From assembly GCF_024919295.1 (NCBI RefSeq), contig NZ_JANWTC010000001.1:124001-188000 (forward strand): a stretch of 64,000 nt of DNA. The letters run 5' to 3'. The notes under the pieces were generated by a model, which was not told the origin of the DNA, ran no database searches, and worked only from the letters and a program-made list of their open reading frames with translations. The translations under genes were made by a program, and so were the position numbers. Every line of letters begins with the position of its first letter. Within the stretch, counting starts at the first letter, position 1. Source of the DNA: Corynebacterium lemuris (GTDB lineage: Bacteria; Actinomycetota; Actinomycetes; Mycobacteriales; Mycobacteriaceae). This document shows, one piece after another, positions 1,786 to 7,201 of the stretch.

Positions 1786-2490
1786 ATGAACCTCGAGCGT
1801 CGGCCGATCCTGTTCATCGGCGGCAGCGGATTGTCCGGCTGGATCTGGGAGGACGTGCGCGCCCGGCTGGGTGCGCATCCCGGGGACGGTGTCACCGCCC
1901 GGCCTGCCACCGGCACCCGCGCCAGCCTGCGCGATTATGCGGCGGCGGCCCTCGACTCCGCCCCGGGCGGAGAGTTCACGGTGGTGGCGCATTCCTCCGG
2001 TGGGGTGATCGCCGCAGAGCTCGCCCGCCGGGCCCCGGAGCGGGTGGCCGCGCTTCTGGCCGTCAGTGCTGTCATCCCCGCCCCGGGCCGCTCCTTCATT
2101 GAGACGCTGCCCGCCCCCAACCGGTGGCTCCTCGGTCTCGTGATGAGCCTGACCAGCACCCGCCCGCCCGCATCCTCGATCCGCCGGGGCCTGGCCTACG
2201 GTTTGAACGAGGAACTCGCCGGGCGGATCATCAGCGGTTTCGTCCCCGAATCCCGACATCTCTACCGGGACCGGGTCGGTGCCGGAACGTGGGCTGGTCG
2301 GTGCGGCTATGTGCTGACCACCCGGGACCGGGAACTTCCCTTCGCGGTCCAACGGAAGTCGGCGCAGACCCTCGGCGCGGAATGGACCCGGGAAATAGCC
2401 ACCGGTCATCTGCCGATGCTCGAGGACCCGCGGGCGCTCACCGCAGCCATCACCGATTTCCTGGCGGAAGAGGATCAGACCCGCCGGTAA
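1786..2490 (+). CDS. Alpha/beta hydrolase (small esterase-like)
   Basis: A 234-aa single-domain alpha/beta hydrolase. The nucleophile elbow is VAHSSGG with Ser70, and the C-terminal GHLPMLEDP supplies the expected catalytic His (about residue 208). An N-terminal LFIGGSGLSGW loop fits the oxyanion-hole region. The ATG at 1786 is chosen because the protein then begins directly before the first beta strand; upstream in-frame codons lack family character. It overlaps the 3' end of the convergent cupin gene by 16 bp. It could serve the hydantoinase or the neighbouring catabolic operon, but substrate is unknown. Confidence 0.8.
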   Translation: MNLERRPILFIGGSGLSGWIWEDVRARLGAHPGDGVTARPATGTRASLRDYAAAALDSAPGGEFTVVAHSSGGVIAAELARRAPERVAALLAVSAVIPAPGRSFIETLPAPNRWLLGLVMSLTSTRPPASSIRRGLAYGLNEELAGRIISGFVPESRHLYRDRVGAGTWAGRCGYVLTTRDRELPFAVQRKSAQTLGAEWTREIATGHLPMLEDPRALTAAITDFLAEEDQTRR

Positions 2491-2885
2491 CCGGCCAGGC
2501 TGTCATCGGCGACGTCCGGGAGGTTGACCACGAGGTTGTCCGGGGTGCGCGCGGTCATCCACACCAGTTCCTCGGTGGTGCTCATGTTCGCCTCCACGTG
2601 GGGGAGATGCGGTGGCACGAAGACCCAGTCGCCTTCCTTCATGTCGACGTACTCGGAGTAGTTCTCCCCGAAGTAGATGCGGCCGTGGCCCTTGATCACC
2701 CGCCCGCCGGTCTCGCATTCGGCGTGGTGGTGGGGCAGGGAGCGGTGGCCGGGGGCGTTGCGGACCTCGCCGAACCAGATCTTCGTGGCGCCCGTGTTCT
2801 GCGGGCTGACACCGGAGACGCGGATGCAGTCGCCGGACTGGGTGGTGTTGGTGTCCTCGGTACCCGAGGGGGTGACCTTGATCAT
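2475..2885 (-). CDS. Single-domain cupin protein
   Basis: A 136-aa protein with both cupin motifs: a HHH-x-E cluster (His52-54, Glu56) after a short beta stretch, and a second motif ending PPHLPHVEAN with His96. These residues form a metal site in cupins, which include isomerases, dioxygenases and lyases acting on small acids. The ATG at 2885 has GAGGAA upstream. It is the last gene of the minus-strand operon starting at 5331, 11 bp after the NIPSNAP gene. The context suggests processing or binding of a small organic acid. The reaction is not identifiable. Confidence 0.82.
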   Translation of the reverse strand: MIKVTPSGTEDTNTTQSGDCIRVSGVSPQNTGATKIWFGEVRNAPGHRSLPHHHAECETGGRVIKGHGRIYFGENYSEYVDMKEGDWVFVPPHLPHVEANMSTTEELVWMTARTPDNLVVNLPDVADDSLAGYRRV

Positions 2886-2896
2886 GGGGGATTCCT

Positions 2897-3238
2897 CTAG
2901 TTGTTTCCGATGGGGGAGAAGGAGGTCGGGTACATGATCCGGTTCTCCATCGTCATGATCATGGGGCGGATCTTCTCCAGGCAGCCCTGCCACTGTTCGT
3001 TGGCGGCCAGTTCCGCCCGGCGGCGCCGGCGGTCCTCCATGTCGGAGTAGCGCCACAGGTGCACGAGCTGGTTCTGGGTGCCCAGTTCAGTGACGAAGTA
3101 GCCGAGGAAACCGCCGAGGATGGGTTTCTGCACGGACAGACCCTCCCGCTCGTAGATCTCCAGGTACTCGTCGATCTTCGCGCCCGTCTGGAGGACGTAG
3201 ATCCGCTCCTCGATGATGCAGTCGTAGTTCAGTGCCAT
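2897..3238 (-). CDS. NIPSNAP family protein
   Basis: A 113-aa ferredoxin-like dimeric alpha/beta barrel protein. The pattern I-EERIYVLQTGAK-DEYLEIYEREG near the N-terminus and LVHLWRYSDMEDR in the middle is characteristic of NIPSNAP. Members often sit in catabolic operons for aromatic or sugar-like acids, but their chemistry is mostly undefined. The stop codon abuts the start region of the cupin, and the ATG lies directly at the end of the permease gene (no gap), so translation is probably coupled. Confidence 0.82.
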   Translation of the reverse strand: MALNYDCIIEERIYVLQTGAKIDEYLEIYEREGLSVQKPILGGFLGYFVTELGTQNQLVHLWRYSDMEDRRRRRAELAANEQWQGCLEKIRPMIMTMENRIMYPTSFSPIGNN

Positions 3239-4288
3239 CTAGTTTTCTCCGATTCCGCTGGTGGCCGGTTCTTTCTTCCGGTGGATGCGGTCCTCGTAGA
3301 AGGCCTCCTCGTTCTCCGGGGACACACCACGGCTGCGCTGCCATTTCGCCACGGCACTGACCAGGAAGGGCACGATCAGGGCGGTGACCACCACCGATGC
3401 CGCCACCTGCGTGGTGGCCACATCCAGGACAGCCGCGTAGCTGGGATCAGCTGCCGCCACCGCCACGGGGGTGGCGATGGCGTTGCCGGCGGTGGTTGCC
3501 TCACAGGCGCCGCCGACGACGTTGCGGGTCGGTTTCGGGTGGCGGCGCAGCACGTGCCACAGGTAGAGGGACAGCATGGCCATGCCACCGGAGAGGATGA
3601 TGGTGAACAGACCCAGGACCAGTCCCGGTGCGCCGGAGGTGAAGATCACCTGGAAGTCGATGCCTGTACCCAGGGCGAAGGCGGCGAAGGGGATGATCAG
3701 TCTCTCGCCGGGCCCGAGGAAGTTCCGGGCGATCTCGCTGGTGTTGCCCAGGATCATGCCGAAGAGGATGGGGAAGATCACGGCGACCAATGCCATCAGC
3801 GGGAAATCCGCCAGTCCCGCCACGCCGAGGGCGATGAGGGTGAGGAAGGGTCCGTCGTTGAGCGAGAGGACAGAGACAGCGCCTTTGTCGGTCTTGTTGC
3901 CGAACTCGCCGGTCAGCGCGACGTACAGAGCGCCGTTGGAGTTGGACATGGCGGCGATGACCGCCAACGGGACCAACCCCATGAAGGAGCCGTCCGGGGT
4001 GAGGAAAGCAATCGCGAGGCCGACGGCCAGGGCCGCGGTGTATTTGCCGATGAGCATCACCGCGCCCTTCTCCAGTGCGGTGACCGCGGACTTGAACTGG
4101 ATCTGGGAGCCCATACACACGAAGAACAGGGCGATGAGGACTACCGCGCCGTCCTTGAACAGAGCGGTGGTGAAACTGCCGATCTCCAGGGCCTGTGGGA
4201 AGACGGTGTTGAAGATCGCCCCGAGGAAGAGGGGGACGATCATGAGGGCGCCGGGGATCCTGCCTATGGCGCGGAGGACGTTATCCAT
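3239..4288 (-). CDS. KdgT-type 2-keto-3-deoxygluconate permease family transporter
   Basis: A 349-aa integral membrane protein with about ten hydrophobic segments and the KdgT signatures IGRIPGALMIVPLFLGA at the N-terminus, MSNSNGALY in the middle and a GNAIATPVAVAAADP stretch near residues 270-285. Characterised KdgT proteins are proton symporters for 2-keto-3-deoxygluconate; related carriers may take other keto- or hydroxy-acids. The C-terminal 40 residues are charged and cytosolic. It lies between the AroQ-like pair and the NIPSNAP/cupin genes, so it probably imports the pathway's substrate. Confidence 0.85.
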   Translation of the reverse strand: MDNVLRAIGRIPGALMIVPLFLGAIFNTVFPQALEIGSFTTALFKDGAVVLIALFFVCMGSQIQFKSAVTALEKGAVMLIGKYTAALAVGLAIAFLTPDGSFMGLVPLAVIAAMSNSNGALYVALTGEFGNKTDKGAVSVLSLNDGPFLTLIALGVAGLADFPLMALVAVIFPILFGMILGNTSEIARNFLGPGERLIIPFAAFALGTGIDFQVIFTSGAPGLVLGLFTIILSGGMAMLSLYLWHVLRRHPKPTRNVVGGACEATTAGNAIATPVAVAAADPSYAAVLDVATTQVAASVVVTALIVPFLVSAVAKWQRSRGVSPENEEAFYEDRIHRKKEPATSGIGEN

Positions 4289-4301
4289 GATGGTTTTTCC
4301 T

Positions 4302-4814
4302 TCAGGAGGAGGTGAGGTGCTGCTCGTCGAGGTACAGGGTCAGTCCCACCAGGGAGGAGAGGTAGCTCTGGTGGCGCAGACCCATCACCAGGCTCTGCGC
4401 CTGGCTGGTCAGCCCGGATTCCAGCCGGATGTGCGGGGAGGACTGGGCGAAGTGGCGGACGGTGTTGGCGAAGTGGGTCTCGGCATAGGGTTTGCCGGAC
4501 ATCTCGAAGGCCTGGCGCATCCCCTCGGCGTAAGTCTGCAGGCCGGCCGGATTGACCATCCAGCCGTCCACCTCGTCGGCATGCTCGTGGATCCAGTCGA
4601 TGATCTCGCCGTCCTGGTTGGAGACCAGGGAGATGATCTTCACACCGAGGCGTTCACCCCAGCTGCGGTTCATCCCGTCCAGCTCGGCCCAGGAGATGGA
4701 GCCGTACTTGCTGGGGTCGCGCTTGCCCAGTTGGGACATGTTCGGTCCGTCGATGATGCCGATGGTCCATTCGCGGTCAGTGAGGCGGATGGCGCCGCCG
4801 TTCCAATTACGCAT
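4302..4814 (-). CDS. AroQ-fold (type II dehydroquinase-like) protein, second paralogue
   Basis: A 170-aa protein with the type II 3-dehydroquinate dehydratase outline: DGPN (22-25), LGKRDPSKYG (29-38, retaining the Arg and Tyr of the lid loop), SNQDGEIIDWIHEH (65-78), VNPAGLQTYA (87-96) and ETHFAN (112-117). In dehydroquinases the third block reads GLTHTS, whose His is a catalytic acid; here that position is Thr. Standard dehydroquinase activity is therefore doubtful. The ATG at 4814 overlaps the stop of the upstream paralogue by 8 nt. The two proteins may form a hetero-oligomer. Confidence 0.8.
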   Translation of the reverse strand: MRNWNGGAIRLTDREWTIGIIDGPNMSQLGKRDPSKYGSISWAELDGMNRSWGERLGVKIISLVSNQDGEIIDWIHEHADEVDGWMVNPAGLQTYAEGMRQAFEMSGKPYAETHFANTVRHFAQSSPHIRLESGLTSQAQSLVMGLRHQSYLSSLVGLTLYLDEQHLTSS

Positions 4815-5331
4815 CGGTGCCCTCCCCGGTGGCCTGGGCGGCGCGCTCGTCGAGAAGATCGACCAGGCCGATGAGGGCTGCGGTGTAAGAGTGCTGGCCG
4901 AAGCCGGAGACCACACCGGTGGCCGAGGCGGTGATCTTCGATTCGAGGCGGATGTGCGGGGAGACGCGGGCGAAGTGCTTGACCGTGTTGAAGAAGTGGA
5001 CCTCGACGTAGGGCTTGCGGGTCTCCTCCAGCGCGTGGCGCAGTCCCTCGCTGTAGGAGGTGAGGCTGCCCGGGTTGACGATGATGCCGTCGACGTCGCC
5101 GGCGTTGGCGTGGAGCCACTCGAGGAGCTTGCCCTCGTAGTTGGAGGCGAAGTGGATGATCTCCACCTCGAGGAGGCCGCCGACCTTGTTGACCAGGTGG
5201 TCTAGTTCGTCCCAGCTGCCCAGCGTGTGGTCGCGGTGACCGCGTTCGCGGCCGATGTTGGCGATGTTGGGGCCGTCGAGGACGGCGATGCGCCACTTGG
5301 CGGCCGGGTTGTTCTTGTCGATTCGGGACAT
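4807..5331 (-). CDS. AroQ-fold (type II dehydroquinase-like) protein, first paralogue
   Basis: A 174-aa paralogue of the next gene and the first gene of the operon. It has DGPN (19-22), SNYEGKLLEWLH (63-74), VNPGSLTSYS (85-94) and VEVHFFN (109-115). The lid loop reads IGRERGHRDHTLG, three residues longer than in AroQ and without the catalytic Tyr; the GLTHTS histidine is Ser. Both key residues of the known enzyme are thus gone. The ATG at 5331 has GGAGG about ten bases upstream, the better of the possible starts. The IclR gene at 5450 is divergent, with 118 bp between. The fold assignment is firm, the reaction unknown. Confidence 0.8.
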   Translation of the reverse strand: MSRIDKNNPAAKWRIAVLDGPNIANIGRERGHRDHTLGSWDELDHLVNKVGGLLEVEIIHFASNYEGKLLEWLHANAGDVDGIIVNPGSLTSYSEGLRHALEETRKPYVEVHFFNTVKHFARVSPHIRLESKITASATGVVSGFGQHSYTAALIGLVDLLDERAAQATGEGTDA

Positions 5332-5357
5332 GGGGTGATCCTCCGGGGGATTCATTA

Positions 5358-5447
5358 TGTGAGCTGGATTACCTCTGGGGTGGCTCAATAATGGCACTTT
5401 CGGCAAAAAAGTGGGAACTTTAGATCTTTTTCCCGTTATGTGGGAAA
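5358..5447. promoter_or_regulatory. Divergent control region of the AroQ-like operon and iclR, with inverted repeats
   Basis: TTTCCC-N7-GGGAAA (5429-5447) is a perfect inverted repeat just ahead of the preferred iclR start at 5450. A second GGGAA (5413-5417) pairs with the same TTCCC arm, giving alternating half-sites. This suits an IclR-type operator that could control both directions. A weak GlxR/CRP-like match (TGTGA...TTACC, 5358-5373) lies nearer the AroQ-like gene. All of this is pattern-based. Confidence 0.45.
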
Positions 5448-5449
5448 CT

Positions 5450-6229
5450 ATGGGGGTGGCAAAAAATCTCACCTCCGTGACCAATGCAGTCCGCATCCTT
5501 CGCCTCCTTGGCGCCCGCGAGGGCCGCCTCGGTGTATCCGACATCGCCGAGAAGCTGAATCTGAGCACGTCAACCACCCACCGCGTGCTCTCGACCCTGC
5601 ACACCGGCGGACTCGTGGAACGCCGGAACTCACCCATCCGCTACGGCCTGGCCCCGGGGGTGGCCATCTCCCCCGACCGGGATGAGGGCGAGCGGCTGGC
5701 AGAGCTGGCGACGCCGGTGATGACCCGGCTTAAGGACGTAGTGAATTCGACTATCCACATCCTCTTCATGGCCGGCGACCACCTGGAGTTCCTCGCCGCC
5801 GTCGAATCGGACGCCATGATGCGGGTGACCTCCCGCCTGGGCAGGCAGGTGCCCGCACATCTGGGTGCCGCAGGTAAGGTGCTCCTGGCGCTGGGGGCCA
5901 CGGACGTGGGGGAGCGACTGTGCCGGGAGGAGACGCTCTACAGCCCCACCGGCCGAGGTCCCCAGACCGGTGCGGAGTTGCGCGAGGAGCTGGATCTGGT
6001 GCGTCGGCTCGGCTACGGGCGCAACCTCTCCGAATCAGAGATCGGGATGTACTCGATCGCCCTGCCGCTGCGCGGCTACGACGGCAGGGTCACCTACTCG
6101 CTGACCATCGCCGGCCCGATGTCCATCGCGGAACCGGCGCCCGATGGTGAGCTCTCCGAAGTGGAGCAGCACTACCTGGAGAACCTGCAGGCCGCCGCCG
6201 ATGAGATTGAGGCGCTGCTCGGCCTCTGA
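5450..6229 (+). CDS. IclR family transcriptional regulator
   Basis: A 259-aa regulator. The N-terminal winged HTH includes LGVSDIAEKLNLSTSTTHRVLSTLHTGGL, and the C-terminal effector domain contains the IclR pattern around HLGAAGKVLLA and a final SIALPLRGYDG region. The start could be ATG 5438 or 5450 or GTG 5411; 5450 is preferred since the inverted repeat at 5429-5447 would otherwise lie inside the coding region. It is divergent from the AroQ-like operon and is the obvious candidate for its regulator, responding to an aromatic or sugar-acid ligand. Confidence 0.88.
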   Translation: MGVAKNLTSVTNAVRILRLLGAREGRLGVSDIAEKLNLSTSTTHRVLSTLHTGGLVERRNSPIRYGLAPGVAISPDRDEGERLAELATPVMTRLKDVVNSTIHILFMAGDHLEFLAAVESDAMMRVTSRLGRQVPAHLGAAGKVLLALGATDVGERLCREETLYSPTGRGPQTGAELREELDLVRRLGYGRNLSESEIGMYSIALPLRGYDGRVTYSLTIAGPMSIAEPAPDGELSEVEQHYLENLQAAADEIEALLGL

Positions 6230-6456: not shown

Positions 6457-6643
6457 GGGGGAATTCCTTCAGCGGCGGCGGGGTGGGGTGCACCGGGGAT
6501 GCTAGTGGAGTGGCGGCCTCCCGGCAGGGCCACGGCCCCGACGAAGCGGTGGAAAAGAACGTAGCGTGGATCACCAGGACGGTTCTGCATGGGCCCGTCC
6601 CGGAGGAACCGTCACATCCACACAATCTCCAGGAGTGATAACC

Positions 6644-7201
6644 ATGACCCGTATCGCCATCGTCGTCGGCAGCACCCGACCCAACCGCAACGCCCGTGAC
6701 GTCGCCGAGTGGGTGCACCAGAACGCACCCCAGGGCGGGGATGCTGAATATGAACTCGTCGACATCGCCGACTTCAACCTGCCGCTTCTCGACGAACCCA
6801 TGCCGCCGGCCATGGGGCAGTACGAGAACGAGCACACGAAGGTCTGGGCTGAGAAGGTCGCCTCCTTCGACGGCTACATCTTCGTCACCCCCGAGTACAA
6901 CCACTCCGTGCCCGCCGCCCTGAAGAACGCCGTGGACTACCTCTACGCCGAGTGGAACAACAAGGCCATCGGTTTCGTCAGCTACGGTTCTGCCGGCGGT
7001 ACCCGCGCGGTCGAGGCTTGGCGCCTGATCGCCGCCGAGCTGCAGATGGCTGACGTGCGTGCCCAGGTATTCCTGTCCTTCAGCACCGACTTCAACGGAA
7101 TGACGGAGTTCGCCCCCACTGACGGTGCGACCGGCGCCCTGCAGGGTGTGTTCGAGCAGGTTGCCGCCTGGGCGAAGGCGTTGGAGCCGCTGCGCGCCTG
7201 A
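6644..7201 (+). CDS. NADPH-dependent FMN reductase family protein
   Basis: A 185-aa flavodoxin-like reductase. The N-terminal GSTRPNRNARDVAEWV loop binds FMN phosphate, and VTPEYNHSVPAALKNAVDYL is the classical family signature; YGSAGGTRAVE follows. Such enzymes reduce FMN, quinones, azo dyes or chromate using NAD(P)H in the cytosol. The ATG at 6644 has AGGAG eight bases upstream, better than longer starts. It is monocistronic, followed by repeat copy A. Confidence 0.88.
   Translation: MTRIAIVVGSTRPNRNARDVAEWVHQNAPQGGDAEYELVDIADFNLPLLDEPMPPAMGQYENEHTKVWAEKVASFDGYIFVTPEYNHSVPAALKNAVDYLYAEWNNKAIGFVSYGSAGGTRAVEAWRLIAAELQMADVRAQVFLSFSTDFNGMTEFAPTDGATGALQGVFEQVAAWAKALEPLRA

Follow-up and report, generated by a model that had tools for sequence, protein, structure and literature searches.

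Two tandem minus-strand genes of Corynebacterium lemuris encode proteins, here named A and B, that have a type II dehydroquinase fold in structure prediction and that, judged by sequence, are not ordinary AroQ. The genes lie in a 64,000-nucleotide stretch of contig NZ_JANWTC010000001.1 (positions 124,001 to 188,000, the whole of which we call the window), and a gene for a predicted KdgT-type permease adjoins that of B. We favor the explanation, at a probability of roughly 0.45, that A and B make up one mixed two-component lyase or isomerase for a small acid that this permease would import. Type II dehydroquinase itself is described as a single-function homododecamer and a drug target (PMC7144000).

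The case begins with the fold and with the distance of both proteins from ordinary AroQ. AlphaFold single-chain models had a mean predicted local distance difference test score of 88.7 (A) and 90.3 (B). When these were compared with known structures by Foldseek, all of the 50 matches listed for each protein were type II dehydroquinases, save one designed particle for A, and identity to solved structures among the matches listed was 22–33%. Sequence searches also matched both proteins to solved type II dehydroquinases, the best E being 1.5e-17 (A) and 7.3e-17 (B). Neither protein, however, reached the AroQ equivalog profile TIGR01088 (98.5 bits for A and 87.4 bits for B, against a cut-off of 169.85), and the same genome has a separate, ordinary AroQ that scored 197.4 bits against PF01220, where A scored 94.1 and B 89.8. 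Because A and B fall below the equivalog cut-off and a separate AroQ gene is present, we do not regard either as an ordinary AroQ. A sequence-only reading of the window had described two tandem dehydroquinase-fold paralogues with altered active sites beside a permease; the fold and the residue counts given below agree with that description.

Next, we counted active-site residues over 143 alignment rows, comprising four AroQ and 139 family members (23 A, 23 B, 4 rhizobial proteins and 89 actinobacterial AroQ-like proteins, hereafter the C group), after removal of the fragments P0057 and P0058. In AroQ, His81 and Asp88 hold the substrate, and Asn75, Glu99 and His101 are assigned active-site roles. 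His81 was kept in 0/139 family members and Asp88 in 2/139, whereas both were present in 4/4 AroQ rows; Thr94 and Gln101 occupy the two places in the B protein of the window. The substrate is thus probably not 3-dehydroquinate, since His81 is gone in all members and Asp88 in all but two. The altered positions of A and B fall in columns that are otherwise conserved, and the Ser103 column of AroQ has become Phe in 23/23 A and Ala in 23/23 B. A D88N mutant of type II dehydroquinase exists, according to PDB titles. Together with the flavodoxin-like fold, the Asn12, Asn75, Glu99 and His101 columns of AroQ are common to A and B, and A keeps all four residues in 23/23 sequences.

The two proteins differ in the lid. 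In type II enzymes, the base is proposed to be Tyr24, and activity also requires Arg19 (PMC7144000). B resembles AroQ in this respect, with Arg19 and Tyr24 in 23/23 sequences (Arg32 and Tyr37 in the window protein, in which Asn25, Asn88, Glu112 and His114 are also kept). By contrast, the AroQ lid is replaced in A: Arg19 was found in 0/23 sequences and Tyr24 in 1/23, and position 24 is Asp or His in 21/23. Other residues are conserved anew in the A lid, namely Glu19 (22/23), Gly21 (20/23), Arg23 (21/23), His25 (23/23) and Leu27 (23/23), and in the window protein Glu29, Asp34 and His35 occupy the Arg19, Tyr24 and Gly25 places. Given that the new lid residues are conserved in 20–23 of the 23 sequences, the A lid looks rebuilt rather than decayed. 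A and B also differ from AroQ in being two tandem genes.

We then considered whether A and B belong together. In a tree of 66 of the 143 rows, from which the lid columns were excluded and in which long branches are present, A formed one clade (support 100/100) and B another (100/99), both nested inside the C group. Across 12 pairs, A and B distances were correlated with r = 0.87, a value matched by 0/5000 permutations. Three of these pairs were read as DNA (our own locus and those of Corynebacterium comes, G1289, and a metagenome-assembled genome (MAG), G925); the Zobellella aerophila and Raineyella antarctica pairs were joined by the same organism name and contigs of equal size, and partnership in the other seven was inferred from contigs of equal size. 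With partners assigned by read DNA, organism record or equal contig size, 10/13 A-type proteins on contigs longer than 2 kb had a B-type partner, so that the two orthologues mostly occur together, in keeping with the sequence-only reading; P0001, P0013 and P0019 on such contigs were without one.

The pair is rare. It was present in 3/242 Corynebacterium genomes at E 1e-40 (the match in G1449, at the same contig position as that in the MAG, was taken with it as one genome). At E 1e-44, matches came from 5/397 genomes of an order sample and 2/374 of a class sample, our own included. A scan of genome contigs with one query sequence returned two loci, and a class sample around Geminicoccus gave 0/337 genomes at E 1e-38. 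In a phylum sample, 295/396 genomes matched at E 1e-20, the best besides our own pair being 3.5e-35; these matches are probably ordinary AroQ. Our literature searches found no description of the A/B pair.

To see what travels with the pair, nine window proteins were compared with the C. comes and MAG loci by tblastn at E 1e-5. (Genes in the fetched loci had been called by a simple script based on codon position, which overlooked A, B and the esterase of our own locus; the comparison was redone by tblastn.) Only A, B and the permease matched both other Corynebacterium loci, with identities of 83% (C. comes) and 72% (MAG) for A, 87% and 76% for B, and 66–69% and 62% for the permease. The permease gene adjoins B in our own locus, is one gene from A in the MAG and lies ~6.5 kb from A in C. 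comes; a KdgT-type permease thus occurs within 7 kb of the pair in all three loci. At E 1e-30 the permease was found in 1/33 sampled family genomes, namely our own.

The other neighbors did not recur. NIPSNAP, the cupin, IclR, the esterase and hydantoinase A had no match in either other locus, and we rejected IclR, the esterase and hydantoinase A as defining parts on this ground. NIPSNAP and the cupin were likewise rejected, being absent from the whole C. comes and MAG genomes at E 1e-6; the cupin, moreover, has counterparts next to genes of acyl-CoA type, both elsewhere in the host genome and on plasmids. Regulators differ too, with IclR in our own locus and LysR in those of C. comes and the MAG (by eye in the MAG). 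The proposed acid-degradation module therefore stands in part: its surroundings are rich in catabolic genes, but it is not a fixed six-gene unit, and only A, B and the permease recur.

What the permease carries bears on the substrate. It is a near full-length match to PF03812 (352.6 bits), like the 2-keto-3-deoxygluconate permease KdgT, but it did not reach the KdgT equivalog TIGR00793 (217.9 bits, cut-off 453.8). A KdgT-named relative that is 62.5% identical, on a plasmid of Rhizobium sp. WL3 (L099 9001-10038), sits among aromatic genes, between catA and benD and also near catC, a cycloisomerase and pcaD. On account of the sub-cut-off score and this catA/benD-flanked relative, the sugar-acid label of the window permease appears unsafe; the KdgT assignment of the sequence-only reading holds for the family and should not be taken to imply sugar-acid transport. 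Some PF03812 members may thus transport aromatic acids or muconate.

Further clues came from gene neighbors. In C. comes, three genes precede the pair: one of the cyclase family, one of the glyoxalase family and one for a relative of muconate cycloisomerase (198.6 bits, subfamily cut-off 334.95). A catechol 1,2-dioxygenase (495.4 bits, cut-off 404.4) is encoded ~3.2 kb from B. We sought the cycloisomerase relative in five genomes. In G680, a 59% identical protein lies beside an intradiol dioxygenase (by eye), on another contig than the AroQ-like gene of that genome; the window and MAG genomes hold only 27–29% counterparts, and we do not claim the cycloisomerase as part of the module. The window cupin is 75% identical to one in plasmid pAL1 of Arthrobacter Rue61a, whose cupin cluster holds an AMP-binding protein and a gene named as salicylyl-CoA hydroxylase. 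These clues, all of them weak, lean toward aromatic-acid catabolism over sugar acids and fix no single reaction. Judging by what surrounds the Rhizobium permease and the pair in C. comes, our guess would be an acid from aromatic ring cleavage, of the muconate or lactone type.

Two other groups of AroQ-like proteins place the pair in context. Members of the C group, inside which A and B nest, share the pocket losses (His81 in 0/89, Asp88 in 2/89) but differ in having a canonical lid, with Arg19 in 89/89 and Tyr or Phe at position 24 in 89/89; we call the group single-copy, a status checked for only part of the 89. Among the C-group loci that were read, L058, L059 and L080 hold cyclase-family genes, with CoA-ligase and CoA-transferase types in L058 and L080 (by eye); these three perhaps represent another pathway that uses the dehydroquinase fold. 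An annotated fumarylacetoacetate hydrolase is also found among the neighbors of C-group genes.

The second group is rhizobial. Plasmids of Mesorhizobium WSM4875 and Shinella zoogloeoides Teo12 each carry two adjacent AroQ-like genes, of which the first is without the lid segment and the second keeps Arg19 and Tyr24. Like A and B, this is a tandem pair of one lid-bearing protein and one partner without the catalytic lid; unlike in A, the lid of the partner is deleted and not replaced. The annotated starts of the rhizobial first genes look too short (L055 8440-8943, L056 4047-4550), and an in-frame upstream start restores the first strand and no lid. A search of 72,556 plasmid records at E 1e-15 matched the lid-less type in these two alone. 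The rhizobial neighbors include a xanthine-dehydrogenase-family hydroxylase and a semialdehyde dehydrogenase, and no KdgT-named gene occurs in the annotated stretches. In the best tree, A groups with neither the lid-less partner nor B. This favors a second, independent origin of an asymmetric pair; the approximately unbiased test rejected none of the alternatives (A with the lid-less partner, p = 0.108; A with B, 0.146; the two rhizobial genes together, 0.418).

How might such a pair work? In our preferred explanation, the permease would import a small acid, and A and B would assemble into a mixed enzyme that deprotonates it and then dehydrates or isomerizes it. B would probably abstract the proton with its Tyr37/Arg32 pair, with His114 as the acid, as in AroQ. 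The dehydroquinase oligomer builds its active sites near subunit interfaces, and for this reason A would probably contribute Glu29 and His35 to a common active site, which it would complete or tune. A fuller version, in which the Tyr/Arg lid of B and the new Glu-Gly-Arg-His lid of A act together on a permease-imported acid from ring cleavage, and in which asymmetric pairs had more than one origin, among actinobacteria and among rhizobia, we consider rather unlikely in its entirety.

Several points weigh against a mixed enzyme for a ring-cleavage acid. The putative complex of A with B is suggested by co-evolution, the structure models being of single chains; the correlation partly reflects only shared descent, and genes for enzymes of successive steps also evolve in step. 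The Arg112 column is Arg in 23/23 A and 23/23 B, and part of the old AroQ pocket may accordingly be retained. The link to ring cleavage depends on a small number of loci: a single plasmid of Rhizobium and a single region of C. comes. In the latter, transposase and resolvase genes (by eye) separate the pair from the dioxygenase, and counterparts of the C. comes cycloisomerase are only 28% identical in the window genome and 27% and 29% identical in the MAG. Another close plasmid permease, from Paracoccus, is without aromatic ring-cleavage neighbors.

The main rival, which we think somewhat unlikely, is that each protein forms a homo-oligomeric enzyme of its own and the two catalyze successive steps of one catabolic route, B being a lyase with a classical lid and A catalyzing another step with its Glu/His lid. 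The newly conserved, undecayed lid of A and its four invariant residues speak for this, and the co-evolution of A and B fits it equally well. The rhizobial partner, on the other hand, has lost its lid outright and is easier to understand as a non-catalytic subunit, although, as a member of a different pair, it may be a poor guide to A.

It is improbable that A is a regulatory paralogue whose changed pocket binds the pathway acid and which governs B or the transporter instead of taking part in catalysis: A does lack the catalytic lid pair and is linked to B, but Asn75, Glu99 and His101 persist in every A sequence, and a regulator gene is close by in each of the three loci. Very improbable, finally, is a role for A and B as catabolic 3-dehydroquinate dehydratases in a quinate/shikimate route, for although the fold, the PF01220 match, the lid and His101 of B and the NCBI name of relatives ('type II 3-dehydroquinate dehydratase') would fit, both proteins are under the AroQ profile cut-offs in a genome with its own AroQ, His81 is lost in 139/139 and Asp88 in 137/139 members, A is without the Arg19/Tyr24 pair, and no quinate/shikimate dehydrogenase or dehydroshikimate dehydratase was recognized by eye in the genes predicted over the ~80 kb that surround the operon, where no profile search was aimed at them.

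All five minus-strand genes and the divergent IclR gene that the sequence-only reading had placed at 2475-6229 were found there (Table 1), in the order A, B, permease, NIPSNAP and cupin. Besides the permease, the remaining products were above their Pfam cut-offs: Cupin_2 at 36.7 bits, NIPSNAP at 90.8, DHquinase_II at 94.0 (A) and 89.6 (B), and IclR_C with HTH_IclR for the regulator.

Table 1. Genes of the A/B locus, with positions in the window.
Feature	Length (amino acids)	Position	Strand	Remark
Protein A	174	4807..5331	-	predicted type II dehydroquinase fold, changed lid
Protein B	170	4302..4814	-	predicted type II dehydroquinase fold, canonical lid pair
KdgT-type (PF03812) permease	349	3239..4288	-	recurrent partner of A and B
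NIPSNAP-family protein	113	2897..3238	-	accessory
Small cupin	136	2475..2885	-	accessory
IclR-family regulator		5411..6229	+	divergent; shorter start possible at 5450

The genes for A and B share 8 bases, and gaps of 0, 11 and 13 bases separate the others, which makes a single transcript for the five genes plausible. Purine-rich leaders precede all five starts. Long plus-strand open reading frames span the same stretch and look like GC-rich antisense frames. A promoter scan gave 0 promoter-like sites, and five terminator-like sites were found against a mean of 1.7 in shuffles. An inverted-repeat search upstream of A, with a minimum repeat length of 8, found none. The start of the IclR gene is flanked by opposed GGGAA/TTCCC repeats at 5411-5450 (GTGGGAAC at 5411, TTCCC at 5430 and GTGGGAA at 5440), a possible operator.

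The host genome comprises 3.17 Mb in 61 contigs. A hydantoinase and an esterase had been noted beside the operon, and Pfam confirmed both the hydantoinase A and the alpha/beta hydrolase ('esterase') that adjoin it. Many catabolic genes, mostly read by eye, surround the operon over ~80 kb, among them those for a TRAP transporter, aldehyde and alcohol dehydrogenases, a P450, a GMC oxidoreductase, acyl-CoA and carboxylase functions and hydantoinase B, with hydantoinase A by Pfam. An FMN reductase at 6566-7201 is 82% identical to one in the MAG (L091 12092-12646) and matched the MAG locus only. Given this shared gene and several further chromosomal neighbors in common, our own and the MAG loci probably represent the same chromosomal neighborhood. 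The genome encodes another cupin, with 59% identity across the matched region, ~43 kb from the operon (L086 11061-11522, own contig 13), next to acyl-CoA dehydrogenase, MaoC-type and carboxyltransferase genes (by eye). In C. comes, genes for a glutamine-synthetase-like protein, an amidotransferase and a ring-hydroxylating dioxygenase stand in a row (L075 395-8001), a layout that we take to resemble aniline dioxygenase clusters.

The known type II dehydroquinase is a textbook single-function enzyme, while the A/B family has lost pocket residues and sits among catabolic genes. These features suggest that the databases misname the proteins of this family as '3-dehydroquinate dehydratase'. The linkage to the permease provides a handle on the substrate of the A/B system, and a family that includes such a pair, in which one lid is canonical and the other rebuilt, would clearly exemplify new chemistry on the dehydroquinase fold.

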